This document shows positions 3,901-62,900 of a stretch of 64,000 bases of DNA, one piece after another. Position 1 is the stretch's first letter, and each line of letters starts with the position of its first letter. The notes under the pieces were generated by a model. That model had not been told where the DNA came from. It was given only the letters and a program-made list of their open reading frames with translations, and did not search any database. The stretch comes from Branchiostoma floridae. Taxonomy: Eukaryota > Chordata > Leptocardii > Amphioxiformes > Branchiostomatidae. The position numbers and the translations under genes were made by a program. The stretch lies in contig NC_049980.1 in assembly GCF_000003815.2 (NCBI RefSeq), forward strand, positions 23,261,249-23,325,248, given 5' to 3'.

Positions 3901-6873
3901 TCGATTGGTATCTTAGAATACAACACGGGTAACACGGATAGATTGTATGAATGTTGATTTGTAATTTGACTGAGAAACCAGGAGTTGGCTTTAAGTAATG
4001 TCTGTGGTGTACTTTTCATAGTTGATCGTAGTGATAAAACTATTCATTATTTCCGTCCAGGTTCAAGGAAGAAACTTGAAAGGCTAGGGATATTGCAACA
4101 AATACTGACGGTGCTGATGAATATGTAACTATGTGGTAAACAATGCTATTGAAGAAGTAATATCATTTCGTCAAAGATCCCAGCAGTATGTATGAATATT
4201 TACATGTTTCCGTAACAGTAAAATATGCGATATGATATCTGGCCATCAGAAGGTAAATCTGCCACATGATTTCTTCATGGTGATACTGGACATAGTAACA
4301 GAACAATTGTACCACTCGTCAGTCTCTTGTACAAAGTAGATACATAAATCAGTAATGCCAGCAGAATTTTTTCAGACATTTTTTTTCGGCATAAAATCGG
4401 TATCAAATTCTAATAATGCTTGACTGCATAATTTACGGTCTGTTTTACTTCAGGCACAACAGCGGTTACTGCTGGCCTAACTAGACGTTGTACATCTAAT
4501 GGAGGTCTGCAACCCCAGGAGTAGCACATTTTTATGGCCACACCAAGGGACTAAACACTAGAAAGCTAAGTATCCATTCTTTATGTAACCTCCGACCTAA
4601 ACATAAACATTACAGGCAGAAATGACAAATCTTAAGCCCACTGCTTTATTCTCGGCGATAAGAATAGGCGCGGGCACTGTTATCTTTCCAGAGTGCACAT
4701 CATTTACAGCGCTGTATATCCGTGCCCACACGCGGGTGTCATCTACGGGACTTATGATCCGTTCCTGTAAGTGTTATGTAAATCTGCATCATTCACTTTG
4801 ACGAGTGATGGTGTTAGTTATATATATCCCATTGCCTTACAGACCTGTGGCTGAAATTGCATTTCTCCAGTCTCTATTAGATGTCCCTCCCGTCCCAAGC
4901 CACTGGAGGGCGGATATTTCACCACAGATCACTTTGACGAAATGGGCTTCAATGGACGAAATGAAGCACCGTACGTCACAACATAATGCTAAGCACATTA
5001 GGTGTATACTTCACGACCTGGCAACCATATCAAAACTTTGCCGTTATAAGATTCCCCAGTGTCGTGAAAAAGTTTACTCGGGCCATAAAGAGATACATAT
5101 CGATGCCCCTCGGCATGAGACCCAATTTAAGCGCCGATGCCAAATGATACATAATGTCTTCCGGGCCGTAGGACATCGATATTTTTCAGTCTTACTCCAG
5201 ACAAATGAAATCATAGGATTATACAGTTAGGTGAGATAACGCTGCATAACCACAGGGAGACGGACATACTTGCCTGATACGACGGTACGGGGTATACGCT
5301 TTGTGCCCATTACAGCTGAAATAGCCAGAGAAATGCTCTGCTATATCTCAGTGGCACAGATCTCAAAGGCGTTTCTTCTGGAAAGAGAACACTTGATGAG
5401 TGTAAGCATTCATCTAGCTTGCTTACCATTTAGACCGGTCCAAGACCGGATTGCGCTGCACAAAGGAGACCAAAAATAAAATTGTTTAATTGTTGTTTTG
5501 CAAATACATGCCCTCATTACAATACAAGCACGGTGATATTGGCAGATGCTACCTATACTAAGAAACTGATCAAATGAAATATGAAGAAAGATAAAACTCT
5601 GATTTGAATGTTCAAAGTTATCTTTCTGTGCTCATTTACTACTGTACTGCTGAAATAACCAGCGGTGTTTCGTGCTAACAAAGGGACAATGAACTCAGTG
5701 GCCTTTACCCATTACATGCCTGTATGATGAGTGTAAGCTATAGCTGACGTCACTGACTTGTGCTACCGCCGATGTGAGTCCGTGTAATAATTCTGGCGGT
5801 AAATGAGTTTACAGTTGTAGATACTATCTGACAAATCGTTCTTTTAAACGCAGACAGAGTCTCTGTCGCCAGCTTATCTGATCTTATTCGTTAACTTGGT
5901 CCTCGCACTAGTGACGTGCCAGAATCAAGCAGCATAGTGATATTTTGCTCACTTAATCGTGATGAAATGTTACAAACGTGTTGGAAAGCAACCTCAACAT
6001 AACTGCGAAATGTTAGATTTATTCTGCAATCCATCGTATTCGACGTTCTTGGCACAAAGCTGTGAATTAATCTCTTTGACCCAAAGGGCGTCTCAGAGAG
6101 CTCATCGCTACACACGAAACTGAAGCGATAACGCTTTCTTTATTTGAGATAAGGCTAACTTTGATGTAGAGCGACATCCTGGGGCAATAGAATCGGCTAT
6201 AGTGCCGTCCAGTCGTTAATCATTAGAATTGTACAAAGTTTTCCGTCCGGCAGGGGCATTTTAATCTATACATCTACAGCATGCCATGATGCTTGCAGAG
6301 TAGTACATCAGCACATAACAGTCAGAAATGTAGATATAAAACATTAAACTTAATACTTATCACATACATCTGGTTAGGATGTCCTTGACTTTTACAAACA
6401 TCCAATGCGACATTTCATGCCCACCATCAAGATATGTATTCTGATGCAACAAAGGACATGAAGGAAGACTTGTCGTGTTCTAGTCATGTCCATTAAGACT
6501 TTGCCAGGTTTGAATGAATAGACACATTTAGTTCGTAAGATCACGCGTGTTCTAAGTGACCTCACCAATCTAATATGAAGAAGACTGACGCCGAAAACTC
6601 GGGAACCCTTTCGGTGATGTACATATGATGAAGCACAGTTAAGCTTCCAACAATAGTAGCCACCAACAGGGATACTGTCTTATAGTGATAACATTAACAC
6701 GAGTACTCATAACAGATGAAGAAGGATCAGGTATCTTTACCACATCTGCTGATGCAACAGACATACTGCAAACGATGTATGGCGATCCCTATTGTTTGTT
6801 ATACTGGGTTATGCAGGACCTAGTGTCTAGTCTCTATTTTGAACAGCTTCTATTCTCAAAGAAAATGAGATAA
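976..6873. other. Intergenic, no gene recognised
   Basis: Read on both strands. Open frames here (for example 2188-2502 +, 3155-3526 - and 4805-5230 +) lack recognisable domains, are not flanked by a convincing exon chain and look like chance frames. A short direct duplication of 'agggtcctggatca' lies at about 2768-2797. No tRNA, rRNA or clear promoter was seen. Confidence 0.5.
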
Positions 6874-7014
6874 AGCGAAGAAAAGTGGGCGGACATCAAG
6901 AAATGGACCGAAAAGAACTTTGGAGAGACCCAGGCAATCTCACATAAGCCGTGGGAGTGGAGCCAGCTGGTGCAGCGCTCATCCATGCAGCACCCTTACG
7001 ACCCCGGAAAATAG
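6874..7014 (+). pseudogene. Possible C-terminal relic of a retroelement ORF
   Basis: After a stop at 6871-6873 the same frame stays open for 46 codons to a TAG at 7012-7014. It is rich in W, K and E and ends W-S-Q-L-V-Q-R-S-S-M-Q-H-P-Y-D-P-G-K. A tail with 'W..LV.RS..Q.P.DPG' resembles the ends of some LINE-encoded polyproteins, but there is no reverse transcriptase core to confirm it. It may be a chance frame. Confidence 0.25.
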
Positions 7015-8299
7015 GGTTCCAACACCGGGGGATGAGGTAACGGCTAATCTAATCTACAAACGCAAACCCCTCACACATACAACTTATTGAGATTATTCCC
7101 TGGCATTTCATGATATCTGTCGAAACATCGTCAGTTCAATGAAATTCTCTCGTCACCTTAACTACATCTGATACGGCTTCAACTCCAACCTTCCACAGTT
7201 CCTGGGGGAGTGAAGGCGGTGGAGTGAGTTCCAGTTTTTATCTGGCGAATCAGAGCTGCTTGCATGTCCATGTACACCTGCGGGAAAGTACAACCGTGTA
7301 GTATTGATTTGCCTCTTACTTGATGAATACTATAAAAGTCTTCGTGAGTGACAGTGACCAGCGATAAGCAGTGGTATTCGTTATTGCTGATTGAAAAGAT
7401 AAGGTTTGGAACATGGATTGCAGTGCATAAATGCCCAGTGTCAGTGAGCTATGTAGTAATTTGATTATTTCTTTACCAACTCAGGCATCAAGATGCCGAT
7501 TAGTGTTTTGCTACCCCCACCCCCGCACACACACAATAACCTCACCAGGTGTCCATTACCATATGTAGGACTGTTACAGATAGGTATTTTTATCACGATT
7601 GCAAGGCTATATGTTGCCATAAACTGTACATTCGTTTATTCAGCATTATATATGTCTGTCTATGCTACGGATATCAAACGCAGAATAGAGGAAGACGAAC
7701 ATGCATAGAGGTACGTACAAATACTGACGGTCATCTCATATCCCCCTGGGACCTCTTACTCACACTATCGACGTTACCATGTAGAGCCAAGTGTCTGTCG
7801 GATCTTGCAACAAGAGACATTTACCAATGTATTTTTAGTAAATCCAACAGCAAACCTCAGTGCTTTCTTAACAACACAAAGTTCATCAAAAATTTGCAGC
7901 CTGCTTGTTGGTAAAGACATATTATTTCGCATTTTTACAAGGCATGTTCCGGGTTAAGTATATATTGATATTCCTTAAAGGCTTCAAAGACGATCGTGCA
8001 AAATGAAATAATTCCAGCTCTGGTAGTGTTATACTCCTACCTAACCGAAGAACTCTACTCTATGTGAGATTCCGCGTATCAAACAACCCATGGCCATTTC
8101 TCTGGAGAAACTCAATGTATTGCCTGGTGCTCAATGTACGACAGTGAAATGGTTCTGATGATGGGGATTACAATGTCTGTTTGTCCAAAGCCTATCAATG
8201 AATGTTTGTGCAATGACCCTTATCGTACATATCTTCAATGATGCAAATCTTCTCTAAGCACTACGAGGTATATGAGATTCTGGGGAGATTCCTCATGAG
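7015..8299. other. Intergenic, no gene recognised
   Basis: Overlapping open frames at 7493-7914 have no recognisable domain. A short C/CA-rich simple stretch lies at about 7507-7533. Nothing else supported. Confidence 0.45.
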
Positions 8300-9243
8300 T
8301 CATGACTATCTACCAATCAGACACACAACTGTCTTCGTATTCTTCTCTTCTTCATGAACTTGGCTGGGAAAAGTTAACTTATCGACGTTATGTTCATTCT
8401 TTTGTTCTATTCCATAAAATTGTTAATGGCCAAACACGGAAGTATCTAACCGATTTATTACCGCCAGAGGTTTCTGCAACAACGGCATACAATCTTCGCA
8501 GCAAACGCAATCTCCAAGTACCAGTGTGTAATACCACTTGTTTTCAAAAATCTTTTTTACCGCACTCAACTCAGTTATGGAACTCTCTTGATTCTAGTGT
8601 TCGTTTGTTGAGCGCTGCTCGTTTTAAAAGGGATTTGGTCAAATCTGTTCGCCCTGTTGCTGTACCATATTTTAATTCAGGACCGAGATACGCCTGCGCT
8701 TTACTCACACGTCTTCGCATCGGCACCTGCAGCTTAAACCACAGTCTGTTCATTCGTAACTTAGTTACGAGTCCTGCTTGCAGCTGCGGATGCCGATGCG
8801 AAAGCATTCCTCATTATCTGCTTCACTGTTCTAATTATGTTCAACAACGTACTCTCCTCTTAGACAGACTTGAAAACCTGAATATTCCTATGTTAGATTT
8901 AAATTCGTTATCTGATAGTTCTTTTGTTTATCTGCTACTTAAAGGATCGGCTTTACTGACATCTGATATAAATTCTCAAATTCTCTCCATAACTCAATCA
9001 TATTTATCCGAAACAAAACGATTTTAAAATTGCTTTTTGACTATCCTTATCATTTACTATTGGTAACATAAGTTTATCCGTCTGTTTCTTTTTAGAATTA
9101 GGCGTTCCCGTACCCGTTTCATCTTTTTTGTCCTATGTTGTGTTGTTATTTTGTCCAGTGGTATCTTTAACATAAGCCTGTGTGCTTGAGTGGGGGCACC
9201 ATTATGTTTTGTACTGTATTAATGTTGCAATTAAAAAAAAAAA
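8300..9243 (+). mobile_element. 5'-truncated non-LTR retrotransposon (LINE)
   Basis: The element consists of the C-terminal part of a LINE ORF2 (8302-9027), a 3' UTR of about 205 bp, and an 11-base A run at 9233-9243 marking the 3' end. The 5' boundary is near 8300 because homology-like sequence starts abruptly there, as expected for truncated target-primed reverse transcription. I could not find a convincing target-site duplication. Family placement (Jockey/CR1-like) is only a guess from the C-terminal motif style. Confidence 0.75.
8302..9027 (+). pseudogene. LINE reverse transcriptase ORF2, C-terminal 241 codons
   Basis: The translated frame carries motifs typical of the region downstream of the reverse transcriptase domain in Jockey/CR1-like LINEs. 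They are an L-L-H-E-L-G-W-E-K-L start, 'LLPPEVS.TTAYNLRS', 'SFLPHSTQLWNSL' and 'ARFKRDL', followed by 'LLTRLRIGTCSLN' and a Cys-rich segment ending in H-Y-L-L-H-C. The catalytic reverse transcriptase and endonuclease parts are missing, so this copy cannot mobilise itself. There is no stop or frameshift across 241 codons, which suggests a fairly recent insertion. The initial Met is just the first in-frame ATG of the remnant, not a real start. Confidence 0.75.
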
Positions 9244-15200: not shown

Positions 15201-15919
15201 ATAAAATATCGAACTATAAAACACTTGAAATAAACCAAAACCCTCGAGAAAACAATCTATGCACCTCTGCGTCACCTGTGCCTCTGCGTGAAGTCACCGG
15301 TGGCAATACAAAAGTAACATATCGCTACGAGCCCTACGACGGTCTGAGAGAACAGTTATCCTGGCAGTTGCATGTGAACCCTCGCTTTCAGAATATGAAC
15401 AGAGAGCCATGTGGTGACACAACTTCTCCGAGCGACGCCTGATCTGCCCTGTGGCGCGAAATTCCGCATCTGACGGCGTTGTATCTATCCGCAGATGTCT
15501 GACAGCCATCAATGATCAACGTTAAAACAACATAAACAAATGGGAATTTAAGCTTGATATGCTCAACGTAGGATGTAAATTGTTATTGACATTCTTAGAG
15601 ACTAGTCTGTAATATGATGGCTAAGTTGAGTACTATTTTCTTTCTCTTCAAGCAGAGGTTTAGACCCGGCTTTCTGGATGTTTTTATGCGTTTTTGTCGG
15701 GCTTTCTATTTTTCAGTTTTTCTTTTTGTTCATCACCCAAACAAAGCACATTTTAAAGAAGCCGGAGCTTAACTTCTGTTTGCAAAGCAAATTTTCTATA
15801 GGTATTAAGTGAAAATAAACCACCGATTGAATCCCCCTCGGCCATAATGGTTTGGCCAGATGTTAAAGGTTATAGGTTATAGGCCCCACGGTGCGGTGGT
15901 GGTCGGTAAGAGTGCACCT
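9244..15919. other. Intergenic, no gene recognised
   Basis: Scanned on both strands. Frames up to about 127 codons (for example 10611-10982 - and 13138-13521 -) show no domain, repeat or exon chain that I can recognise. No tRNA B-box or RNA gene was seen. The promoter and any 5' UTR exon of GTDC1 should lie in the last part of this stretch, but no TATA box or other element stands out. Confidence 0.45.
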
Positions 15920-26900: not shown

Positions 26901-29900
26901 GAACGTACTGACACACTTACAGCACCAAATGTACCACCTGGTAGTCATACAGAGTTATACTATCATTAGAGATCCATTGATAGAGAGCACATAGAGAGCA
27001 CATTGGGAAAACTAGAAACAATAGGCATATATGCTCTTTACCTCCCAACCAAAAAACAAGAATACTTGTCCTGTACCCAACAGACAGTGATTCCAAACTG
27101 CAATATTTCCAAAATATTGCAGTTTGATATCACCATCCATCGACTTGATATCCAAATACCCAATTTTCAATACAATGAATATAGGTTATCCTTCAGATAA
27201 AGGTGAACTAGCATTAGATAGCACTGTGTTCTTTTTCCTGTGGGCTTACTATGGAAGTACATGTACATGGTAAGCCCATAATCATGAGCTTTACATTAGG
27301 GTACAGAGAGGCTTAAAGTTACTAGTGCTAAGTAGCCAGTTACCATGCATATGAAACAGACATAGAAAACCTTAAATTTTTACAACATACAATACTTGTT
27401 CACTTAAACTGTAAGCTCCTATAAGTATCAAGGAATGTAGTGCAGACCTGTTCTCATGACTGTGATGTAGATGATCTTGGTGCCTGTGCCATCCGTACTG
27501 TCCTCTGTAGTCATGACCTCAGTCTGTGTGAAGCTAAACACACCGTGAGGGTTGTCGTTCTGTTGGATGGTGATCTTAGCCACAGAGAACTCTGGGTTCA
27601 GTCTGGGGGACACGCCTGGAGTAGAAGTCAACATGGTCAGCTGACATCAAACTTAGCATGCATCTGATAACAGTCACAAAACTTCAGTACATTGGAGGAA
27701 ATCCAGATCCTTTTAAAGGATACTAATTGCCACATTTATTCTTTTCCAACAGAATAAACATACAGGTCTCAACTAAACTCTATCCTTTTCTTCATAATCA
27801 TACTTCACTAATCATCATCTTACTTCACAAATGGTCGAAAATTTTCTCCAACCTGTTTCCCTTGTGCTGGGCAGCACCTCCACTGAGGTGATGTTTACAT
27901 AGAAGACCTCGTCCAGTTCAGGGATATTCAGACTGTCCTGCAGCAGAGGCACCAGAATCTGCACTGTCCTCTCTCCTGACTCCAGAATGATGGACCCACT
28001 GGTGACAGGCTCAAAGTCCTGTCCTGCCACAGCTGTCCCAGATGATGTCATGTAGATGATGCGAGTGTTGTTCAGAACTCCCAACTGTCGCTCTACAGTC
28101 AAGGAGACCTGAAACAAACCAAATTGACTTTTAGAACACATCTTCCTTTGAGACTTTTCACCCAAAATGTTATGTAGTCTATCTACAATAACTGTTCAAA
28201 ATGAAATGATTACAATATTTGATCATATTGCAGTTGATGACTGAATCCCATTTAGCATTTTTTTAAATAAATTATTAAACTTTTGACAAATTGTGGCATG
28301 CAAATCATACTGACTTGTGCCTATTCAAGGGGCAAATGGAGGATTATCTTTTACCTGTTGTTGGTTTTCTGTGACAGTTACGTCCCTTGAGTCCACTGCA
28401 AACTGTATGACTCCATTTGGCTCAATCTCAGCAACAAGACGCCCATCAGTAAGCAGCGCCTCCCCTCCAGCGGGGGTGACAGCAGTAAGTCGCACAGCAA
28501 ACAGTTCTCTGGTACCAGGACTTGGTGAAAGCTGGAGAAATGAAATGATAAATCATGTTGAGTTAAACTGCATGATTTTACTTACCTGGTTATTACGCTC
28601 TGATTAAGTTAAGTGTTCTTTGTGCTTTAAAAATATCACCCAGAGAAATTTTCTGGAATGTTGAAACTGTATGTGATATGCATATACACTCTCATATCAA
28701 AACTAGCAAAAGACTGGCTTTACAGTAAGCTACAATAGACCAGGAATAGCACAATTTGTTCATCTAAGAAGAAAGATATTTCTCCTTGGTGCTGAATTAC
28801 TGGTTGCGCTGATATCACCTTCTCTGTCCTTGGTGCTGAACACAACTTTCACTACATTACAAGCATCTCTGCAACAAAGTCTGAATTACAGTGGTAAAAG
28901 GACAAAAGAGTCCAGTTTGTTCCCAATGCTTATCAAGACAAGCTTCAACATACAATTGATTTTGTTCTTAAAGGCTTAGGTCACATTTCCAAACCGCGGC
29001 CCGGCCGGGATGTTATAAGAAATGAGAAAATCAAAATGTATGCCTAGAGATACACACATATCATGGCCATGGATCTAATTTTGACATTTTGTGTATTTTG
29101 ATATCTTTCATATCATTCTTTTCGCTCCTGAAAGCTGCCCATCCGGGCCCTGGTTTGGAAATGTGACCTAAGCCTAACTTGACAGTCTAATGACTACGTA
29201 TCAGGGTGACTGACTGTCCACAAGATAGTGTACCTTATTAGGAATCTGTCATAGTGACCACAAACTCACCTGTACAATAAAGCTGCGAGTTGACACACCG
29301 TTAGGCATGGTGAGGGTGGACTCTACAGGACTGATGATGCCTGGGACGAAGCCTTCCGGAAGGTTCTCCTGACTCTCAGCCTGCCAGTGCACTGTCACCT
29401 GCTTGAAAGCTCCTACCCTGGTCACTGTCAGCTCAGCCTGTAGGGTGGCTGTGGCAAGGAATGAAGAACAACTGATAAATGACTGGGGATAAATTTAAAG
29501 GGGAAGATTTTCACAATGCCATCTATATGGAACAAGGTGTTTCTATCTCTTTTATAATTTTTTTCATAAGCTGGAAATTTTGAACTACCAAACCATCAAA
29601 CATGATTGATTTGATTGAGAAAAAGATCACTGTATTAGATGACTATTTTGAGCAAACTAGCATCAAAGCTTCCTTACCTTCATTCACATTGACCACCAGG
29701 GACTCAAAGCCTATATGAGAATTGCCAGCAGCCTGTGGTACAACTGCCATGGCAGTTCTGTGGTCTGGATCAATCCTTGGCAGCAAACCTGACTCTGTAA
29801 AGTGTATAGAAAGTTTGTGTAACAACTGGAAAAGTATGCCATGTTAAGGTGAACTGATAAGACCTTTCAGAAACTCAATTTTTTTCTCAAAGATCCATGC

Positions 29901-38900: not shown

Positions 38901-41900
38901 GCTGCAATCATATTTTATCTTATCATTTTTAATGGATACTTTGTAATTACCTGGTCTTTGGCTTCCAGATTCAGTGATGTTTGTGAGGGTGATGATATAA
39001 GTCTCTGCTAGCTCTGGCAAGGAGTCGGCCAAGATTGACAGGGTCAGCACACTGTATCGCTCTCCATCCAGGAATACAACCTGCAATGCGCACATACAAC
39101 ATTTTAAACATACTTAGGCTGTCATAGCAGGTAAAATTTCTCCTTTGGTCCTGTAAATACAGTATCAACATAGCCAGACGACAAAAATAAGACTACCCAG
39201 CTGTTTGAAGATTCAAGAATTTGAACAAATGATTAAACTTATCACTGTCGAAGGGGATACACACTTCTGTAATGTAAGAAAATACAAACTTTAAGTGACA
39301 CACATAATTTGAGATTGCTAGTACAGATACTGGCAAACACACCTGTCCTGACACTGGGCTGATATCAGCTGCAGCATCCCGTGAGGCCTCCCAGTTGACG
39401 ATTACCTGCCCCACAGTTCCCTGGAGACGTTCCACAGTCAGACTCACAGTGTTGTCACTGACAGTTTCCTCTGCCTCAGTCTGCAACTGATCCTGTAACA
39501 AAATCATGTCATGGCATTTATAATCATGAATACATGTATTGTCCATATTGGCTTGACCATATAAAAACGTCCTTTTTAAATCTAGAAAGAGCAATTCTGT
39601 GGAGTAGAAAGCACCAAAATACCTCCACAAATCCTATTATTCCATGTGCATTGTCATTGGACAGGATGGTGACAGTCACTTCCCCATAGCTGCCAATCTC
39701 AGCTCCACCAGTCGGATCAGACAAAGTGACGGTGAAGGATTCGTCGCTTTCAGGGATCTCATCGTTGACAATGGGCACGATGACAGTCAGGGTTCTCATG
39801 TCAGGTTCAAAAGTCAGCTCTCCTGACCTGTTAAGTTTATAGATGACAAGACAATAATTTTAGTCATTTTGGCATGTAGCAAACTAAAAAATATTTGAAG
39901 CTAATATATACTTGTAGGCTGATCAGTATTATTACATACAACTCTTGTTTCTTTTTGCACAATCTCATCTTACAAACATCACATATCATGACATTCTCAC
40001 CTTGCTATGAAGTCAGACCCATCTCCTGTAGTTGTCACCTCAAAGACAGACGATGTGAGTGACATGGACCCATCGCCATAGTTAGCACAGGCCAGTAGAC
40101 TTGTACTCCCTCCATTGTAGGTGGGGACAATGGCAGGGTACAGACTGTAGCAGCTTGGACCATCCAAGAGCTGTGAAAATGTAGAATATTCATTACTCTC
40201 TGAGCAGTAGTTGTAAATCATAGAACAAATTTTAGTAATACTCTTTTCATCATTTTGATGCAATGAATGTAGCCATTATAGAGACAAGAAAACACATGAT
40301 TTAAAGAAAAAAATTGAATTGCTTTCATTTTATGATAAGGTTTATACATAAAGCAAATTAAGATGGGTGTAGACGTGCGGACAATATGTAGACTCTTGTG
40401 AATGAAAAAGAACATCAAACATACCTTTGTGAACAGGTTATCAATGCTGTTCCAAACAAGGACTTCAGAGGCACTGTCTGTGTTGGCAATAACCAAGTGT
40501 TCTGCAAATAAAAAGACAGTTTTCATTGAAACATTCCTCATTTTTCAAGACTTCAAAGCAGAAATTGTAAGCTTATAGGAAAGAAAAATGGACATTTGCT
40601 AAAGAAAATGGACCCTTACCCAGTCCACTAGGTGCAGCATACACCTGGGCCGTACGAGCATTGTTGGTGTCGATGTTCTGGTGGACTAGAAACCTGGATG
40701 ACTGAGAGTCAAACTTGTACACAATAGAAGTCACTGTAGTTGTGCCACCTGCAAAACAATAATACAATAAGTCTATGAAACCCCATTTCTATCTATTCCC
40801 TAGTGCCATTATTTACTGATATATATATTCTGATATACATTTTTTCTCAGCCAGAAAAACTTTTCCTGAAGTGAAGACTTCATTATCTAAACTGAGCCAG
40901 TGCATGTATCGTAACTCATAAAGGTTCTGACACAGTACATATGCAAGATTTTCAGCACCAAGGAGAGAGCCGTTTATGATCTTGGACACCTACTGTTGTC
41001 TCTGCTGTTGGTGAACACCACATAGGTGTCACTGTTGATCTGGAAGGACTCCACATCTGTTGCTCCCAGTGTGTTGATTGTCTGGGGGTTACTCGTGTCA
41101 AATCCACTACCTTCCCAACGATATATTGCAGACCTAGAAAGATACAGACAATGAAGTAAAACAAGTCTTAACAAAGACTTTTCACTTTAGTTTTTTAAAA
41201 AGATTTTGGCAGTATGATTTTGGCAGTATATTGTTAACTGTTGGTTTCTGGGTGAAATGGGAACATATTCTTATCTACCTGCTAATATCCACATTAACTT
41301 ACAACAAGCCTTACCATCTAAAACCTAAAAACGGTCCAAACGTAATGAAATGGAACTTACGTGATCTGGAAATTCTGTTGTGATGAGTCGTAGTGGTTGG
41401 CAATAGCCAGGTATTGTTGGTTTCCAATCTGGAAAATTTCTAGTGCAGATGCTCCAAATGTTGGGATACCTTGAACACCTACAAACTGGCCAGCTCTCCA
41501 TTGTAACACCTGTCGATAAATAAAGTCAGAAGTTCACACCAGACCAGGCTGGCAAAAATATTCATCATGCTTGGATGTTTAACTATGGAAAGGCAGTAAA
41601 CTGTAAAGTAACCATTAAGAGCTACATGTAAAACCATTTTCTCACCTGATTCACAGGGAATTAATCAAAATGCAAGCCATTGAAATTACCTGTGAGTTGA
41701 TGTTGGTCTGCTGCGCATTGTCCATGTAGTTTGCCACAACGAGGTAGTGGGCTCCAGCTGAACTGAAGTACGCAATGTTTCGTGCACCAAGAGTATTCAT
41801 GTTTTGCACCTAACATAAAAACAAGAACATCTCTGAGTATCATTTTGAAATCAAACACTTTTTGAAGAACTTCAACTCATGAGATGAACTACGTTTCATC

Positions 41901-44900: not shown

Positions 44901-47900
44901 AAGAACAGTTTAGATATTTAAGCTTTCAATAACCACAATCTCTTCAGATACAATGAATATTGCCCAAGAAATATATTCAAAATGTTGCAACAATATTGAG
45001 AAGTACTTAATGGGGTAGCTAAATATACATACAAAGCAAAGAAAGAGAAATTAGTCAAAGGTACTTCTACTTGGTATGTTACAGATAACCTCAGTAACTG
45101 TAAAGATTTTGTGTTGGTCCTATCTAATATCATACCTTGCACTGCCTGATGGGAAAATCATGACACCCTTTGTCCCATCATTGGCATCAATAGACACTGT
45201 GGCTAAGGTACTCCCTGCATCTGGAAGAGATACATATGAATTTGCGATTGTTCCTTTCGTCACATATCCACGACTCAGCGCCAAGCATTAGATGACTGCA
45301 ACTATCAAATTTGAATGTATTCAATTTTCCATGTGATTTTGTAATTGAAAACACAAATTCTCCAGTACAATGATGTGAGATAAGAGGGAGGTCAAAAGAA
45401 ATTTGTTCATTATAAAGAAAATTCATCAGAGGTTCATCTCTAAGGGATGGCATGAAACCTTACCAAGTTGAGGAGGGTATGTTGAGGTGTTTGGGTGGAT
45501 GAGCTGGACCTCTGTGATGTTCACCAGGAAGACCTCCACTAGCTCAGGAATGTCATCCTACAAGACACAACAAAGTAGTAATGAAACAAAACAATTTTAT
45601 GAAATATGATTAGAAGCATCTTCAATTGACTTTCGGTCTTAACTTATCATTCTACATTCAACATAAAGCTCATGGATTTACAATATAATATAACACCACT
45701 ACAAATGGAAAGAACTACAATTCAGAATGAATGGTTACCTCCAGTATATCTATGCCTATAGTGGTGGATGTCATTCCATCAGTCATATCAACATATCCCA
45801 TTTCTGCAGTGAAGTCCTCCATTGGGGTGGCCAGGGCTACTTCAGAATTCAGGACAACCGTGCTGCCATTCATGATCTCATAATATACACGAATAGTACC
45901 TGTAGAAGAAAATTTCAATGAACACACATAAACAAATCGAATTATCAAATCAATTATTAGAGCTTGAGGCTCAGTAATATTGCAAAGTAATTTTTTCCAG
46001 TATTTCAAGTTTGGAACAATATGTTTTACAGTTACTGTAGTAGTGCATTGAAGACACAAGTTTGTGATGCAATGAACTTGTGTTGGTAATGTGACTAAGA
46101 AAACTTCAGAAATAAAACCAGCATGAATGGTTCAAGATTTACGGTAAGAATCAGAAATGAAAATAAAAGGAGGAAAGGTAAACATTGTCTTACCAATGGC
46201 TCCAAACTTCCTGTCCAGAAACAGCTGTATGGTCTTGTTGCCCTCTGATGTGGAGACCAGTCTGGAGGAGGATGCCAGCCCGACCACTCCATGTGGCTCA
46301 TTACTGGCCAGGATGGAGATGACAGCTGTGGAACCCACAGGGTCCAGCACAGCACTGCCCCCTACTGTCACACCTGGGATTTGCACAAATTTGTGTTATG
46401 AAATCTTTAAAGTTCATGTCACTTTAACTTCATGAATATGTCAACATCTAGAACAATTTCAAACTGTGTACATTTCAGTCATGACTTCAAGGACATTATC
46501 CTGTCCATATTCCTGTTGCACTCAATTAACACTGGACTACTTCATGCATCACAATGATATTCCATGCTACCATAGAATTTACATAAAAATCATTCATTCA
46601 TATTATTAAAGGTAACTTACAGAAACAATGCTGAAAGCATATCTATCTGTTAAACACTTTTCTACCTTCTGTTTGTGGTTCACTCAGTACAATCTGGTAC
46701 TCCTCACTCGTCTCTGGGACTTGGTCATCCAGGACATGAAGGGTAATGTTCTCTGAGAAAATGCCCTAGAAATAAAAATTTGTACAAGTTATAACATTTA
46801 ATCTAAACATATTAGTGGCATACTGTGATATCAAATGTTTTACACAGCCCTGAAAGCATCCAATAAGATTACTTGAAAGCCAATCTCTCTGTAGCAGTGA
46901 CTAAATGAACTATTTTTCATTTAGCACACATCCAGTCAATTACTATTTACTAAGCATGACATTTTACTTACATCTTCAAAAACAACTGTTCCATTGACTT
47001 CAGCGAATCCCTGTTCTCTGATATTCCTCTGCCTTTCCTCAATGTGCCAGGGTACAGTCACCCTGCCTGCTGCAGAGTTCCTCACCACCTCCAGCTGTAG
47101 GGCTTGGCCTGTGTAACAGACAGTAACTTCAGAATGCAGCCTTTTTAGATTTTAATGTGTTTTGATTATGTACCTTAAGCAGTCCTTAATACATATAACA
47201 TAGTCTAAAGCTGGCTGCATGAGCTATTATAGTGGAAACACCTATTCAAAAAACGCAACCGAGAAGGTAGGTTTGGCAGCTCTGTAGAAAAACAGCATTT
47301 ATCTTTTATCTGTTACATAGCAGACCATTTGGAATTCCTACAAACATAGCCTTTTACAATTAGATATGTATAATAAAAAGTATAAGAAGGAATGCTTGCC
47401 TTCTTGCCCAAGGATAGACCTGGAGTTGGTACTGAACCCTACTCGCCCTGCAACATTGTCATTGGCAAGGATGGAGATGGTGAATGAAGACTGATCAGGA
47501 TCAATGGTGGCTCCACCCAGAGGATTTTGCAGCTGGATAACAATTGTCTCGGTGACCTCTGGGATAACATCATCAACAATTCCAACAACGACATCTGAAA
47601 TAAAAGAAAATAGATTTTACCTAAAGAATCTGGTCTCTTAGATGTATGATAAAATTCTGTACTGTTTTGTATCTTGATAAACATTGGCAGGATGCTGAAT
47701 AACATTCACAATGACACAGGGAGCTGTCCCTGGTGCTGAATGACATTTACACTGACACACGCGTTTGTCCCTGGTGCTGAATAACATTCACAATGACACA
47801 GGGAGCTGTCCCTGGTGCTGAATGGCATTCCCACTGACACAAGTGTTTGTCCCTGGTGCTGAATGACATTCACACTGACACACGTGTTTGTCCCTGGTGC

Positions 47901-50900
47901 TGAATAACATTCACAATGACACGGAGCTGTCCCTGGTGCTGAATGGCATTCCCACTGACACAAGTGTTTGTCCCTGGTGCTGAATGACATTCACACTGAC
48001 ACAAGTGTTTGTCCCTGATGCTGAATGTCATTCACACTGACACAGGGGGCTGTCCCTAGTGCTGAATGATATTCAAACTGACACAGGAGGCTGTCCCTGG
48101 TGCTGAATGATATTCACACTGACACAAGTGTTTGTCCCTGGTGCTGAATGGCATTCACACTGACACAAGTGTTTGTCCCTGATGCTGAATGTCATTCACA
48201 CTGACACAGGGGGCTGTCCCTAGTGCTGAATGATATTCAAACTGACACAGGGGGCTGTCCCTGGTGCTGAATGATATTCAAACTGACACAGGGGGCTGTT
48301 CCTGGTGCTGAATGCCATTCAAACTGACACAGGGGACTGTCCCTGGTGTTGAATGACATTCACACTGACACAAGTGTTTGTCCCTGGTGCTGAATGACAT
48401 TCACACTGACACAAGTGTTTGTCCCTGGTGCTGAATGACATTCACATTGTTACAAGGGACTGTCCCTGGTGCTTCATTGTTGCTACTGAAGAAATATCAG
48501 AGTCCTTACATTTCTTTGTTTCCCCCTCCAGAAATGTGAATGCACCACCGCTTGACCTGTAGTCATCAGTATTGGCTGTTCCACCAGTAACAGCCCAGTT
48601 CACCCTCACTTCCCCAATGGTGCCACCTGTAGACAGTATGAAATGTTGGTGACAATGCATACACATACAACATGTACCAATCAGATTATGACAACCATTG
48701 AGCCCTTCCAGTCTGACATATTAAGTGACTTCTACATTATACATGAATTAAGATCCCTCGTGGGGCATCACAACCTGGGATAACCCCTTAAAACAACAGC
48801 AAACGATGCTTAATGATGCAATTTGATACAGTATATACCATTGTGCTATCAATCAACTGATGTGCTGTTGACCTTTCTACCTTTGTAACACCTTAAGTAC
48901 AATATAAATACAACACCTATAGTGCATTTCACATATAGGAAGTAACACCACGAGTGCAATCCAAATAAAGGATATAATTAGCTTCCCTTGTTTTTTATAA
49001 CACCTCAAGTGCAATCCAAATACAGGAAGTAATAGCTTCCCTTAGGCCCCAATATATAATCATTATAAAAGAATGTTACATCAAAGAAAGATGCTATAGT
49101 ATAGTACAGTACTGTTTGGGCTGTGTTTACCTATTCTTTCCACCACCAGCTCCACAGACTGAGAAGTCTCCTCCACTTCAATACTTTGTGCACCTTGCCC
49201 CAGACGACTACTGTAGATGGCAAACATCCCATTGGCTGCATCGTTGGTCTCTATGGTAACCGTTGTCACCGTAACATCTCCCAGACGTGGGTTATTCTCT
49301 GGGACGGCGGAGGCACCACCAGCCAGTTCCACTCGCAGAAGTTGTACCAGGAAGGACTCGTCAAGCTCAGGAACTGTGTCATTTATGATTTGGATGGGGA
49401 TGTCGAAGAATGGCAGACCACCAGGGAAGGTGATAACATCACTCTGGTGTGACACAAAGTCCACACCTGGCTGTGCTTGGCTGGCATACAGTTCGTTGGC
49501 CTGGAGAAAATAGGACTCAATACTGTAACTGTTTCTGTCAAAATACAATAATTCCTGATTGTCCTGTTGCAATACAGACATAATATTCACACACCTATAC
49601 AACATTCAACATCGCGTAGTTTGTCATAGTCTGACTGGCAGGCTGACTGACAGAGAGAAAGAGATACAAAATTCAACATCTAGACAAAACATGGAGGATA
49701 TACTCAATATAGCTTGCAGGATAATCAATGTTACATTGCATAGATTATTTCATCTGAAATGGTAATACAGTAATACAGGCAGATCTTACATCAACAGTAT
49801 CCTTTTGATAGTAGTCTGTTCCAGTGACAGTCGTGTCTACTTGACTGCCGTCCACAGCAACCATCCAGGAGCAGTTCCTGTCAGCAGAGCTGTACTGGAA
49901 GGATGAGCAGGCCCTCTCCAGCAGACAGACTCTTGCACATGCCTCCAGAGGGTTACTCTCTCCAGAGACATCCACAAAGGTGGTGGGAGCTGTCAAAATA
50001 TAAAATTGAAATGATAAGCAATTACACTACTCTGTGTCCTATTCTTAGTTTTCAGTGGCTATTGCTCACCATTGCACCTTATGGAAAAATATATGCCACA
50101 CCTTTTAATACCGTAAGAAATGAGTATTCGAAGCAATGAAAAGTACAGTACACAATGTATATCAGTGAATTCATGAATTAATATCAAAACTATAGGGCAT
50201 ACAACACAAATGACTCCATCTTAACCATTGGTAATGCTTCCTTGGACTGCAGAGGAGAAGTAGCTCATCACAGTACGGCCCATCTGACCAGCCAGCTCTA
50301 TCAGGTCAGTCATCCCAGTGCTGTAGTACAAGCTGAGGTCCCCAAATGTGCCAAAGCTGGAATAGAAAAGTTTCTCAGTAAGTTAAGATTATTCTTGTAT
50401 TTTTTATAGAAATATTCCTCGAACTCCAAAATAGCACATGGCATACATCTTTTATAACCATCATTTATTTTGTACTATGCGTATGTCATCAGTACTACTT
50501 TAATTTAATTTATTGTTATGGTAAAATGTTGATATGCATGACTGTGTACCTTCTGTTGACTCTTATCAAAGCTGTATTTTCTCCAACAAGGCTTTCCTGA
50601 ACACGGTAGCCAGAGGAGGCAAACTGCACCACACCATGGGGGTTGTCATTTGCTGGGATGGTGATTCTTGAGACACCCTGACTGGGGTCAATGTTGGCCT
50701 CCTGGTCTTGCTCTGTGGTTACTGTGGCCTTGACTAAGGTAATTTCCACCACCTGGAAAAGAATGTTACAAAGACATTAGTCTGGATTTCTGACATGTAC
50801 GTTCACCTGCATTGGTCCATGAGGTACTAGATCATTAAACTTCAACAACAACAACTGTACAACAAAAAAATTAGTAAGCATATCTCAGAGTAATCAATTG

Positions 50901-56900: not shown

Positions 56901-59900
56901 TCCCCTCACCTGTGACTGTAGCATAGCCATACACTGGTGACACATTAGCTCCCCCTTTCCCAGAGATAATCACCATGGTGAAGACCTCATTTTGCTCAGG
57001 GATATCATCTTGTACAGACTGCAGACGTGCAGACTGGAGTCTTTCACCCTCTGGATAGGAGAAGTATCCAGACACAGGACCTAGGCTCTGAGCTGCCTCT
57101 GAATCAGCCAATGAACTGATCTCACTGAAAACAGATCAGATAAAGAACTTCTGAGTCAATACAATGTTACTTTCTGAAACAAGTGCAATATCAAGGGTTG
57201 AACTATCATCATAAATCTATTGTGTGTTACATCCTTTGAGAAAAAGTGAATGTTTCAAAGAATTTTTTCTTAACCTTAATGATTAATAACAATTAACGTT
57301 ACTGGCAGAAGCATAATATTTTATTTTCGAAAAATATTCTAAGGTTGCTATCAAGCTAGCAGATTTAGAAATAAATAGATAATATGCAACTATACCGTGA
57401 TGTGAGTTTTCTTGCATAGATCCTGACATCTTGCATGGAGCCTGTAAAGTTTCCACTTCCAGGAGAAACAGCACCCACAAACAGAGCCCCGGCTTCATCA
57501 TCAATCGTCTGAACTCCACCTTCCAGGGCTTGGCTGAAGAAGGGTAAAAACAAGTAAGACATCTTACAATATGTCTTCAAGACAAATGAACCGACAAATG
57601 ACTCTGAAATAAAGGAAATTCATTACTCCACCTGAAGGACATAATTTTTTCCTGTCACTTGGAACAAAAAGTGTTCAAAAGCAGCATGATTCTTTGTACA
57701 TTCAATTTGAGCAAATGCAATACTAAATGCATTGCTGCAAGCAACACCTAATGTGACTGCGACTTTGCACAACACATTGTACAGTATCAAGGCTTCAAGC
57801 AGGCTTCAACATCAGTAGAGCTGTAAGAAAACCCTTGAATATTTGCTCTTGGCACAGAAGCATCTACTGTGAGAAATGATTGACAAATTGTATGAAACAT
57901 CAGGCATAAATCAAATGCCAAGCTAGTTGACCGAAAACACATACGGTAATGTGGTACTGCCCAACCCTATGGAAGGAGATGAACTGTTCAGATGGAGACT
58001 GGAATATGGAAAATATATAAAATGACTTTTCATCTGAATAATTTAAAGCATGGTCTGATTTGTAACAGATATTATAATATCTGATTGATGGATTGATTGA
58101 TGGATTGATTGATGGATTGATTGATTAGTTGATGGATTCAGTGAATTGCATTTGATAATTTGGTTTGTTTACGTGTATTGGTCAATTTCTTGGTCAATAG
58201 ACCTATTGAATAATCAATGAATTAATTAATGGATTGGACAGATCACAGGAAGGTTACCAATGTCATAGTCAATGCTAGCATTGATCAATTTCATGCTGAA
58301 GGATGAAGTCATTCCCAGAGCTTGATAAAATACCTTGCTGTTCCACCAGTTTGTAATCCATCTATGTAGAAGTCCACCATGCCGTTCCCCACTGTCACAG
58401 CCATGTGGTGCCACCTGCCATCCTGGGTGACTTGATTAGTGGAATAGGACAGCACCTGATTTTCCTGAAGTAACAAAACACAGCATTCAGCAAAGACATC
58501 TTACAGCTAGCATCAAAACACTTTGTGACCAATCACAAATAGCAGTTTCTTACATCATATAGATATTAAGCATAACAAGTTAGACTTTTTTGGGTTTACA
58601 ACCATATTATAAAAAAAACACAGAACAGTAACAATAAAGCTTACAGGATTCCCAGGAACAGAGTATCTGAACCAGAGTGCAGTGTCATTCACAGTGGTCC
58701 TGAGTTTGAGGGAGTAGTAGTGCTTCTCTCCATCAGGGCTGGTTTTGGAGATGACCATCCCATCTGTGTCAGGGTCTGGCTGTACCCAGGTGGACATGGT
58801 GAAGCCAGACCTGATCTCGGCCCTTGTGGGGTGGTACTCATTGGACACTTGCAGGTAGGATCCTGTTTAAGAATAAAAGCATTAGATTTCATGTTTCATT
58901 AGATGTTCAATTTCTTTTATTTCTAACTGGCATGTCATTGATCCTATATACAGAAGACATCAAACACACCATCAGCATACTGTGGTGACATCATATCAAA
59001 TACACTGTACCTTGTAGATGTTCTTCTTACAGTGAAAAACTGACCAAAGATGATTTTTGATTCAACACCATGTAAAAGACAATCATGACACTTTGGTCTT
59101 CTACAATGCTATTCATAACAATTAGGGTAACATTATACAATCTTAGAAATGATTGTATATTCCACCTTTGACTTTGGGAGAATAGAAAACATTGTCCAGT
59201 AACTACTTACCATCAGAGCCTGTGAAGTACAAAGCCAGTGTTCCTGTCTTGTCCCGTCCAGGCCTCTGTTGTACAGCTGCCGTGTAGGTTCCCAGCATGA
59301 ACAAGTCATACACCTTAGGCAGCGCTGCAGCCAGGGAGGGAGGGAGGATTTCCCACACAAGCTAGAATCGATGCAGAAAAGACAAGAGTTATTTAGGTCT
59401 GCAAAAATGTTTACACTCAGCTGCATGATGACAAAATGAATACTTTCTGGTTGAAAGTTCACAAGTATTTCAGCACCAAGGACAGGAGACACTGCATGGA
59501 ACATTATCAAAAAGACTTTAGTTAAATGCATTGAAAATACGACTGGAAAAGAAGTATTTTGAATCATAAAGATATCTTTCAGCACCAAGGACAGGGACAC
59601 TTTTGAAGGTTTTTGATGCTATAGTTTTATGCAAAGATAATCATTTTCGAAAAGACTTTCAATTTTACTAATACAAAATGTAAGATCAACATCACCAACA
59701 AGCCTTTCAATTCAAAGTTCCTCTCCCCCATCCACTTTAGATGAGGAAAAATATCCATTGAGAAAATGAAACATTCTTATCTATAGGCTTGCATCATAAA
59801 ATGTGTGAAGTGGTTACCTCCACATCTCCTACAGCTCCTTGTGCTCTCTGGATGGTGAAGTTTGCCCCTGTGCTATCCACATTTCCTGGAAGAAAGTCCT

Positions 59901-62900
59901 CAGCAATGTCAACCATCCTGGAGTCATCTGGGAACATGAACCTGCCGTACGGGTCATCATTGGTCGGAATAGTCAAAACAGCCTCCAGATTTTCAGTAGC
60001 CAGTCTACCACCAGGACCAGGGCTGCCACCTGAAACAAATTACATGATTTTGTTAGATATTCCATATCTTTATTCATAGCTGCAGTGACAAAAATGCTGA
60101 TTTTAATAGCCACCATGCATAAACAGATTAACTAAAGTTAGTTTCACCGTGCTGAAGTTCACGTGAAAGTTTCACGTGAAAGTTTCACGTGAAAGTTCCG
60201 ATTGAACTTCAGCAAATCAGCAAAGTGTATAGGGAACAATCACTCAAACAATCATACCAGTTGCATTGACAAGCCTGAGTGTGTAGTTCTTGGGGAACTC
60301 AGGGATATTGTCAGCCATTACAAGAGCAGAGATGGGCTGTTCAATCTCTCCTTCTGCAAACGTGATGTAGCCTGAGGTGTTGTTAAACTCCTCTCCAACA
60401 GGAACTGGGGAACCTGACATGTCATAGAACTGGTACCAGATCTGTACTTCTCCCCAGAAGCCCCTTTCTCTTACAACCCTGTATGAAGATAAACAAGCAC
60501 AGAGTTTACAACAGTTTAAGATATCAATACAGAATATGTAATGACAGATACATTGGTGTGCATTAGACACCTACCCAAGAAATCACAATGTGATGAATAA
60601 TTACTGTCCTTATGCAGCTATATCTAGACTGTTTCTGTCTATAAACATGATGTCAAAGTTTCGCTGATTGAGAAGAAAAACCCAACATTTTTTATGAGTG
60701 CGGTTTACCGTTATCCTCATCACTTTTTGAAGCCTGCATTACATATGTGTGTCTCAACTATTGTCAACAAAGAGTAATCAACAATTTGTATCATCAGGAC
60801 TTACGTGAAGTTGACTACAACACCCTCCCCAGGTGCAACCTGGTCCAGCTCAGCGGGTGCAAAGCTGAAGACGCCATTAGGATCATCACTTGCTCTGATG
60901 TACACTCTGGCTTCAGTATTCCCATACACTACAGTGTCTCCTGCAAACAGAAACCAAAAGTACAATGACTGGATTATCCTCCATTAATCTTTGGAAATTG
61001 CCTGAATAATTTACCATATTGTGAAAATATGAATCTATTGTGAATAATGGCTTTTAAATTCTTTATTAACATTGATGTATCGGTAGTTTAATTAGTTAGC
61101 CATAAAAAGGGTAAGAAGCTTCAAATACCTGTAGCTGCAAAAAGCTCAACCCGGAACATTTCATTGGTCTCTGGTCTGTTATCGTCCAGGGAAGTAACCA
61201 CCAGCTGTTTCTCCCTCTCTCCTACTGCAAAAGTGATGGTCCCATTGGTGAACTGGAAGTCAAACTCATTTGCAGTGTCCTCAACTGTGCGGTACTGTAC
61301 ACTGGACACGTAGTTGGCTGACCCGTTTCTACGGACGGTTAGAGTGGCTGATCCTGGTTCATTAATGTATACTTCTGGGTCTGAAAGATGACAAAAGGAT
61401 TTTAAAGCATAAAGCATCAACCATCATATGAATTCCTGACTACACAATATGTTAAAGAGCTTTATTGAAATGTATGAAATGTCAAAAAATGATATGCAAC
61501 ACTTGGTAAGTCGACAAAAGGAACAGTTACTGTTGATAGTTGATCTAAATCCTAGTTACCCAGTTGCTGAACAATACAGAATGTATGATAACTCACTAAA
61601 TGAAATACCTAGTACCTAGTTTTTCACAATACAAAAGATAGAAATGCCTACTGACCTGAGAAGTACACTGCATCATCATTATGTGCTACTGTAACAGTGC
61701 TGGTGGAGGGTGCACCCAAGGAGGCACCATTGGTCGGTTCAGTCAGTATGATAGTGAAGGACTCATCATCTTCAGGAATCTGCGAATATTGAAGTCATCA
61801 GAGATATCAGTGCTGTCTTATTTTGTACTATCATACTGTTAAAGTCTTCAGCATCTGAAGTATCAGATAACAAGGACAATCTAGAGAGACAGTCAAATGA
61901 TTTTTCATCAGTGTAGTTTACTGCGTTAAGAATGAGGTTGAAAGAGAAGTATTTGAAATAATACGGCTGTCTTTCAGCACCAAGGACAGGGAACACTGCA
62001 TAGAAAATAATAAAAACAGGTACATTTTGTACATACCATATCAGGAAGAGACTGCAGTTCCAACATTTTATGTCCCTCTCCATCAGCAAACTGCAGTACT
62101 CCAGCTACTGGTGACAGATCTGCTGTGTTGTTTGGTGAGATGTACCAGGACACCCTGGCTGGGCCAAATACTCCCCTATTCCTGTCAACTCGTAAAGAGG
62201 CTGGGTACACATTACTGCTTGTGCTCTCACCTGTAAAAGGAAAGTTTTATCATTAACTCGGTGTATTGACTATATCTCAGGAAATTCATGCATAATATTC
62301 TTTGGATGATTATTTCAAAACCATTGAACGAAATAATACTTCATTTCAAACAAATGTCATTTCTTTATCTCAAAATTTATGACAGAGACAAAGGGAAAAT
62401 ATTCAAGTTCTCTATCTCTATATGAATGTCAACATGAAGTTTATTTTTCAATTTCACACCTCTATGATTATGATTTGATCAATCAATTCTATGTATTGCC
62501 TGATGGTTTCAAAATATTGACTTACTAATTGTGACGTCCGTATCAGCAAAAGAGAAGACTCCATAAGGGTCATCATTCTCCAGCACAGAGATGGAGATGG
62601 TACTGGGGCTGCCAATCACACTGGCTGCCTGGTCCTGTCCGCTGAAGCTCCTCAGCTCCAGGGTGTAAGTCTCATTCAACTGGATATTGAAGAGATACAT
62701 ACATGTAATATCATACAGATACAGGTCTCAATACATAGAGAGAGACTTGATATAGTTTAGTATTCAAACCAATAGTTTCTATGAATTGTTAACAGCCTCA
62801 CCCTCTTAACTGTATATGTTTGCTATACTTTTGTATGCCAACTTCTAAAAAGTGTCTAAGTTAGTTAAGACAGTAACTGTACAATCTTTAGAAGCAATGG

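Follow-up and report, generated by a model that had tools for sequence, protein, structure and literature searches.

The repressor element 1 (RE1), or neuron-restrictive silencer element (NRSE), is the site of REST/NRSF, which in vertebrates silences nerve genes, and its 21-mer consensus, TTCAGCACCACGGACAGCGCC, is printed in PMC3529185. The left half of the element, CAGCAC, is read by REST fingers 7-8 and the right half by fingers 3-5 (PMC8096226). In the available portions of REST papers the element is treated as a vertebrate motif, e.g., in PMC10605157, which deals with NRSE motifs in vertebrates and with Chn as a REST-like gene of Drosophila, and in PMC4430910, which gives 742 NRSEs for Xenopus tropicalis. 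In the available portion of PMC3145563 REST is mentioned for mouse miR-124 and among the abbreviations, and in that of PMC2206037 it appears only in a reference. Among the matches listed for the open-access literature, no title or beginning of an abstract reported REST or RE1 sites in amphioxus. Here we describe RE1-like sites in a 64,000-nucleotide stretch of the genome of the lancelet Branchiostoma floridae (contig NC_049980.1, positions 23,261,249 to 23,325,248; hereafter the window), which include the units of a minisatellite in an intron of a probable ADGRV1-like gene.

Three described systems resemble this array in part. The human MIR137 variable number tandem repeat (VNTR) contains a predicted REST site and is occupied by REST, but it is a single human locus at an internal promoter, with 4-12 copies of a 15-bp unit, and not a genome-wide family (PMC4393679). 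In the first exon of CELSR3, a single regulatory stretch contains REST half-sites in tandem, four in number as against the minisatellite of 19 units described here (PMC8096226). The Mirage minisatellites of amphioxus are likewise intragenic and consist of imperfect tandem units beside splice sites; however, Mirage repeats span the exon-intron border (PMC3087553, PMC3902484), whereas our array (47693-48473) lies wholly inside an intron (47595-48509, borders read by eye).

The lancelet sites are like the vertebrate RE1 in the 15-base core, the 2-bp gap and the over-representation of CC at positions 20-21. They differ in their host, in being often arranged in tandem arrays, in that a REST protein was not recognised, and in having usually A or G at position 11 (among the sites listed) and, in the CC-ending ones, predominantly A at position 19. 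The DNA evidence favours the view that an RE1-type element is under selection or in active use in this species. Judging from the sequence, we give about even weight for and against the reading that an RE1-type binding element is widespread in this genome and has sometimes been expanded into minisatellites, with the array in the window possibly passive.

RE1-like sites outside the array

When the array was set aside, the window contained four cores with 15 of the 15 fixed bases (28824 on the minus strand; 59469, 59578 and 61973 on the plus strand) and one with 14 of 15 (40951, plus strand), which an earlier note on this DNA had overlooked. All five also match TYAGMRCCNNRGMSAG, which we take to be the 16-letter RE1 consensus. 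These five sites with at most one mismatch compare with 0.017 expected per 64 kb under a first-order Markov model. Sites with exactly two, three and four mismatches numbered 1, 3 and 23 in the window, against about 0.1, 1.4 and 13 expected; the excess was thus most pronounced for cores that were intact or nearly so, and mild at four mismatches. Chance is excluded for the RE1-like sites of the window even without the array, and a coincidence confined to the array is rejected by these sites together with those found genome-wide.

Two of the five are isolated, namely 28820..28840 on the minus strand (TTCAGCACCAAGGACAGAGAA), near which a weaker copy with 13 of 15 core bases lies at 28776-28796, and 40951..40971 on the plus strand (TTCAGCACCAAGGAGAGAGCC). 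The other three (59469..59489, 59578..59598 and 61973..61993, all on the plus strand) are related by duplication, so that the five sites do not represent five independent events. The site at 59578 lies in an 84-bp duplicate of the region around 61973, in which 18 of 66 flanking positions and none of 17 core positions have changed (probability that the core is unchanged by chance, 0.0045). The comparison of 59469 with 61973 gave 7 changes in 31 flanking positions and again 0 in 17 core positions (chance, 0.013), and for the pair 59469/59578 the flank is too short to judge the conservation of the core.

In the genome as a whole (513,431,437 bases in 431 contigs) the core TTCAGCACCANGGACAGC had 543 exact matches, compared with 0 for the reversed control and with 0.026 expected from composition (based on the 41% GC of the window). 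The core was followed by CC at positions 20-21 in 56 of the 543 cases, in comparison to 23 expected by composition (binomial P ~1e-9, with the proviso that array copies, including four of the 56 that lie in the window array, are not independent). After removal of the 15 sites situated in arrays or close pairs, 41 remained out of a number of isolated sites that we put at about 310 by extrapolation from the first 100 cores. At position 19 of the 56 CC-ending sites, A was the most frequent base (36), ahead of G and T (9 each) and C (2). Moreover, nine sites in the genome were identical to the vertebrate RE1 at each of the 19 fixed positions, including two perfect 21-mers.

A site was counted as isolated when no other loose core lay within 1.5 kb, as was true of 12 of the 19 C1 loci compared (L015-L033). 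In plus-strand BLAST comparisons (E up to 0.001) collinear similarity among these 12 loci was limited to about 18-27 bp at the core, with the exception of the pair L017/L018 (173 bp at 77%), and the non-collinear matches listed (at least 24) were all between array loci. That these loci match at the core follows from the search having selected for it; what is informative is that nothing around the core is alike and that the core is in excess genome-wide. The resemblance to RE1 that had been noticed in one array therefore goes beyond the chance of that array, as judged by the 543 matches against none, by the isolated sites with unrelated flanks and by the over-representation of CC. As for the surroundings of individual sites, the cores of L017 and L018 are 1.7 kb apart and in opposite orientation in an inverted duplicate, with an adjoining open reading frame (ORF) that looks leucine-rich-repeat-like by eye; the isolated core of L016 lies about 0.5 kb from an ORF resembling by eye a nuclear-receptor ligand-binding domain.

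The sites could, alternatively, be the remains of an old dispersed minisatellite or selfish-repeat superfamily whose identity with RE1 is coincidental. This explanation, which we consider unlikely, is consistent with the clustering of cores: among the first 100 of the 543, ten gaps between neighbours measured 0.5-6 kb, nine of which, on C1 and C2, compare with 0.26 expected. It agrees poorly with the isolated sites, which apart from one pair are alike only at the core, and with the CC preference at positions 20-21, which fits the vertebrate RE1. Of these first 100 cores, 43 lay within 500 bp of another core and 57 did not. Six of the ten gaps were 3.5-4.4 kb, with mixed orientation of the cores; some of the 0.5-6 kb gaps were inside or beside array loci, and at least one shorter gap was within one array locus.

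The array in the ADGRV1-like intron

Tandem Repeats Finder (TRF) reported a repeat at 47693..48473 with a period of 41 bp, 19.1 copies and 86% matches, confirming the 41-bp minisatellite of 19 tandem units that had been noticed before. On the minus strand, which is the transcript strand, each of the 19 units opens with the RE1-like core in the form TTCAGCACC-N2-GGACA or a near form. The intron that bears the array runs on the minus strand from GT at 48509 to AG at 47595, and with these borders, read by eye, the array takes up about 85% of the intron, starting 36 bp inside it and ending 98 bp short of the acceptor. In a Pfam scan of five minus-strand ORFs, Calx-beta was found in three, one of which also had GPS, and there was no match in either of the two ORFs bordering the array intron. 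We presume the gene to be ADGRV1-like on the basis of this domain pair.

An exact match to TYAGMRCCNNRGMSAG was present in 5 of the 19 units (48255, 48091, 47927, 47806 and 47724), in agreement with the five junctions previously said to carry the full core. When mismatches were counted at the 19 fixed positions of TTCAGCACCACGGACAGCGCC, four units had one, four had two, one had three, eight had four and two had five. The four best units, with one mismatch each and all on the minus strand, are 48251..48271 (TTCAGCACCAGGGACAGCCCC) and the three copies of TTCAGCACCAGGGACAGCTCC at 47720..47740, 47802..47822 and 47923..47943. The first of these had been singled out as the best for differing from the vertebrate consensus at two positions; it indeed departs from TTCAGCACCACGGACAGCGCC at just two positions, 11 and 19, and the other three are equally good.

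The right half-site was more variable. It read GGACAG in 9 of the 19 units, GGACAA in another 9 and GAACAG in 1, and the column of the last G of GGACAG (47%) was among the most variable of the unit. Thus, the junction form ending in GGACA (or a near form) holds across the array, whereas its extension to GGACAG is kept in only 9 units, so that about half of its units fall short of a good RE1. With respect to decay, for which the earlier note had contrasted the junctions with the rest of the unit, the outcome for the window array was divided: TTCAGCACC and GGACA were well kept and the final G was not, and in the comparison of core and spacer divergence described below the core ranked 5th of 41 windows. 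The nine units with an intact right half, together with the one reading GAACAG, would provide several weak-to-good putative sites in one intron.

RNA structure was rejected as the function of the array, since a three-unit stretch folded only mildly better than its shuffles (z -1.95, 6 of 200 as good). Elsewhere in the window, a plus-strand ORF at 15848 matched the N-terminal domain of tRNA-queuosine mannosyltransferase in Pfam, and the ORF 8299-9027, which had no Pfam match, resembled on visual inspection the C-terminal portion of a reverse transcriptase from a retrotransposon.

RE1-core arrays elsewhere in the genome

The window array aligned to 65 genome stretches, itself included, which were grouped by eye into about 38 places. 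We examined 49 loci (L001-L009 and L039-L078) that had been picked for being array-like. At least two loose cores were found in every locus but L051; in L071 and L078 the cores were not part of any tandem array reported by TRF. A large group of arrays had units of 37, 41 or 43 bp, with AGTGTCAGTGTGAATGTCA or a related sequence as the spacer. In addition, eight array types with different spacers had the core in common, with units of 30 bp in L070, 75 bp in L072, about 117 bp in L073, 61-70 bp in L074, 43 bp in L075, 42 bp in L076 and 40 bp in both L046 and L009. An array at C2:21693345-21693754 had a spacing of about 43 bp and consisted mostly of TTCAGCACCATGGACAGGGACAGC or TTCAGCACCACGGACAGGGACAGC. 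A sample of 188,553 bases, too small for estimating the share of RE1 arrays among all minisatellites, gave 13 arrays, 8 of which were 84-bp repeats in finger-gene loci and 1 of which had RE1. With dozens of RE1-core arrays in the genome, of which the window array is but one, there is no reason to regard ADGRV1 in particular as a sensory or neural target.

The 65 alignments of the array and the half-conserved stretch AGTGTGAATGTCA, which precedes the core in many arrays, would be expected from the dispersed repeat superfamily considered above. Flanks homologous over more than 100 bp were, however, found only for L053/L054, L055/L059 and L044/L045 among 47 array loci (92 flanks), and shorter flank matches of 21-98 bp were taken for array remnants. 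Since flank homology was confined to three pairs and the flanks were otherwise unrelated, a single transposon as the common carrier of the arrays was ruled out.

In 35 of 44 arrays the core had diverged less than the spacer (0.058 vs 0.092; Wilcoxon P 7.6e-7), divergence being measured to each array's own consensus in the 44 arrays that passed the filters (5 of the 49 were dropped). This held for 28 of the 37 arrays retrieved by similarity to the whole array and for all 7 retrieved through the core. Because spacer divergence is inflated by mixed unit lengths in some arrays, the conservation of the core provides modest support.

These data also bear on the possibility that the array is a passive by-product, i.e., that single RE1-type sites are functional and that the array is a tandem duplication, without array-level function, of a site that lay by chance in an intron. 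We regard such passive expansion as nearly as likely as the reading set out at the beginning, and since it concerns the array only, it is compatible with the rest of that reading. Amphioxus is rich in minisatellites, tandem repeats are known at the intron-exon borders of amphioxus genes (PMC3087553, PMC3902484), GGACAG is missing from half of the window array's units, and the core has been lost or reduced in other arrays (0 cores in L051, 2 in L056), all of which would be in keeping with a by-product. One 15-base core common to eight array types with different spacers, and on average less diverged than the spacer, is harder to reconcile with it. That the array as such could act as a silencer or a sponge is a guess; the MIR137 VNTR (PMC4393679) and the tandem half-sites of CELSR3 (PMC8096226) can be cited as precedents for a step from single sites to a working array.

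Candidate readers of the element

Under our reading, the putative element would be TTCAGCACC-N2-GGACAG, often with C as the next base and with more CC at positions 20-21 than expected. It would be bound by a zinc-finger protein whose specificity is like that of REST and which would repress nearby genes, and the array in the ADGRV1 intron would have arisen by tandem duplication around such a site. We infer a REST-like repressor because the word is identical to that of vertebrates, in which the halves of the site have been assigned to individual fingers (PMC8096226). A more far-reaching form of this reading, in which a cephalochordate would have a genome-wide RE1 network with a REST-like reader too diverged to be recognised by human REST fingers, the code would predate vertebrates, and repeated amplification in this lineage would have produced dozens of dense arrays acting as silencers or decoys, among them the one in ADGRV1, appears to us tentative and somewhat doubtful.

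Several results may speak against an RE1-type system in this genome. On the DNA side, half-sites separated by other gaps gave 70 matches, of which 51 contained a canonical or near-canonical core, and there was no clear peak at gaps of 7-9 bp, the spacing of non-canonical sites in vertebrates, as 6 of the 19 non-canonical matches had such gaps (three of 7 bp, three of 8 bp and none of 9 bp) and the remaining ones were spread over 4-6 and 11-14 bp. The related array L051 had no core, and in 9 of 44 arrays the core was no better conserved than the spacer. Moreover, some of the different-spacer arrays (at least L046 and L009) have a trace of the common spacer, and these may therefore belong to one old superfamily.

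On the protein side, no REST orthologue was recognised with finger queries, helix patterns or the Pfam family zf-C2H2_REST. The queries were human REST zinc fingers (ZF), and in four of the searches (ZF2-8, ZF2-3, ZF7-8 and Pfam) 150 of 4,000-7,300 first-look candidates were scored, so that an orthologue of REST divided among several exons may have escaped notice. This result would also suit the coincidental repeat superfamily. Among the candidates scored, the ZF2-8 query gave 486 matches in multi-finger genes, the best with 45% over ZF3-8. No match stood out with the ZF2-3 query (best 3.2e-8) or the ZF7-8 query (best 2.1e-11; the three best and two others were inspected). The matches of these three queries were multi-finger proteins, and those inspected were not REST-like. 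In 22 loci (L079-L100), 11 of 212 fingers had the same residue as one or another REST finger at three of the four contact positions, in a scattered fashion, three fingers having been counted twice owing to overlapping loci. Degenerate DNA patterns did no better than their reversed controls (ZF7 helix, 4 vs 4; ZF4 helix, 7 vs 9), and the one match inspected, SKNNYVYH at C16:16418335 for the ZF4-helix pattern, was discarded as lying outside any zinc finger. With zf-C2H2_REST there were 21 matches over the cut-off among the 150 candidates scored (frames of 225-2043 aa) and none in 14 control genomes.

The C-terminal finger of REST binds CoREST. The ZF9 query had three matches, the best of which (C4:20253606, E 1.7e-4) is a finger at the C-terminus of the protein, as in REST. 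The gene in question, C4:20250635-20253705 (L087/L100), of which zf-C2H2_REST also matches one finger, was rejected for now as REST: its last finger is like ZF9 of REST and its tandem fingers are not REST-like, as concluded from 3 of about ten fingers scored and the others judged by eye.

Alternatively, the element could be read by another multi-finger protein that is not a REST orthologue and that either converged on the word or kept an ancestral specificity. Genes of this kind are numerous, as illustrated by the 486 matches to ZF2-8, and in the seven-finger ORF at C19:10646259 the layout, with a tail containing Lys, is similar to that of REST, although only 7 of the 28 contact residues agree with REST ZF2-8 (hand count). 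It is improbable, however, that convergence would extend over 15-19 bases and to the CC end, and we find such a reader decidedly unlikely. Taken together, the earlier interpretation of the array as a set of REST/RE1-like sites is partly supported, being wider than claimed on the DNA side and unproven on the protein side.

If our reading is correct, a set of strongly enriched motifs identical to RE1 in a lancelet would date this cis-regulatory code to before the vertebrates and point to a reader protein. In that case, the tandem amplification of an RE1-type site would also represent a natural test of how the number of sites relates to silencing or to the titration of a repressor.

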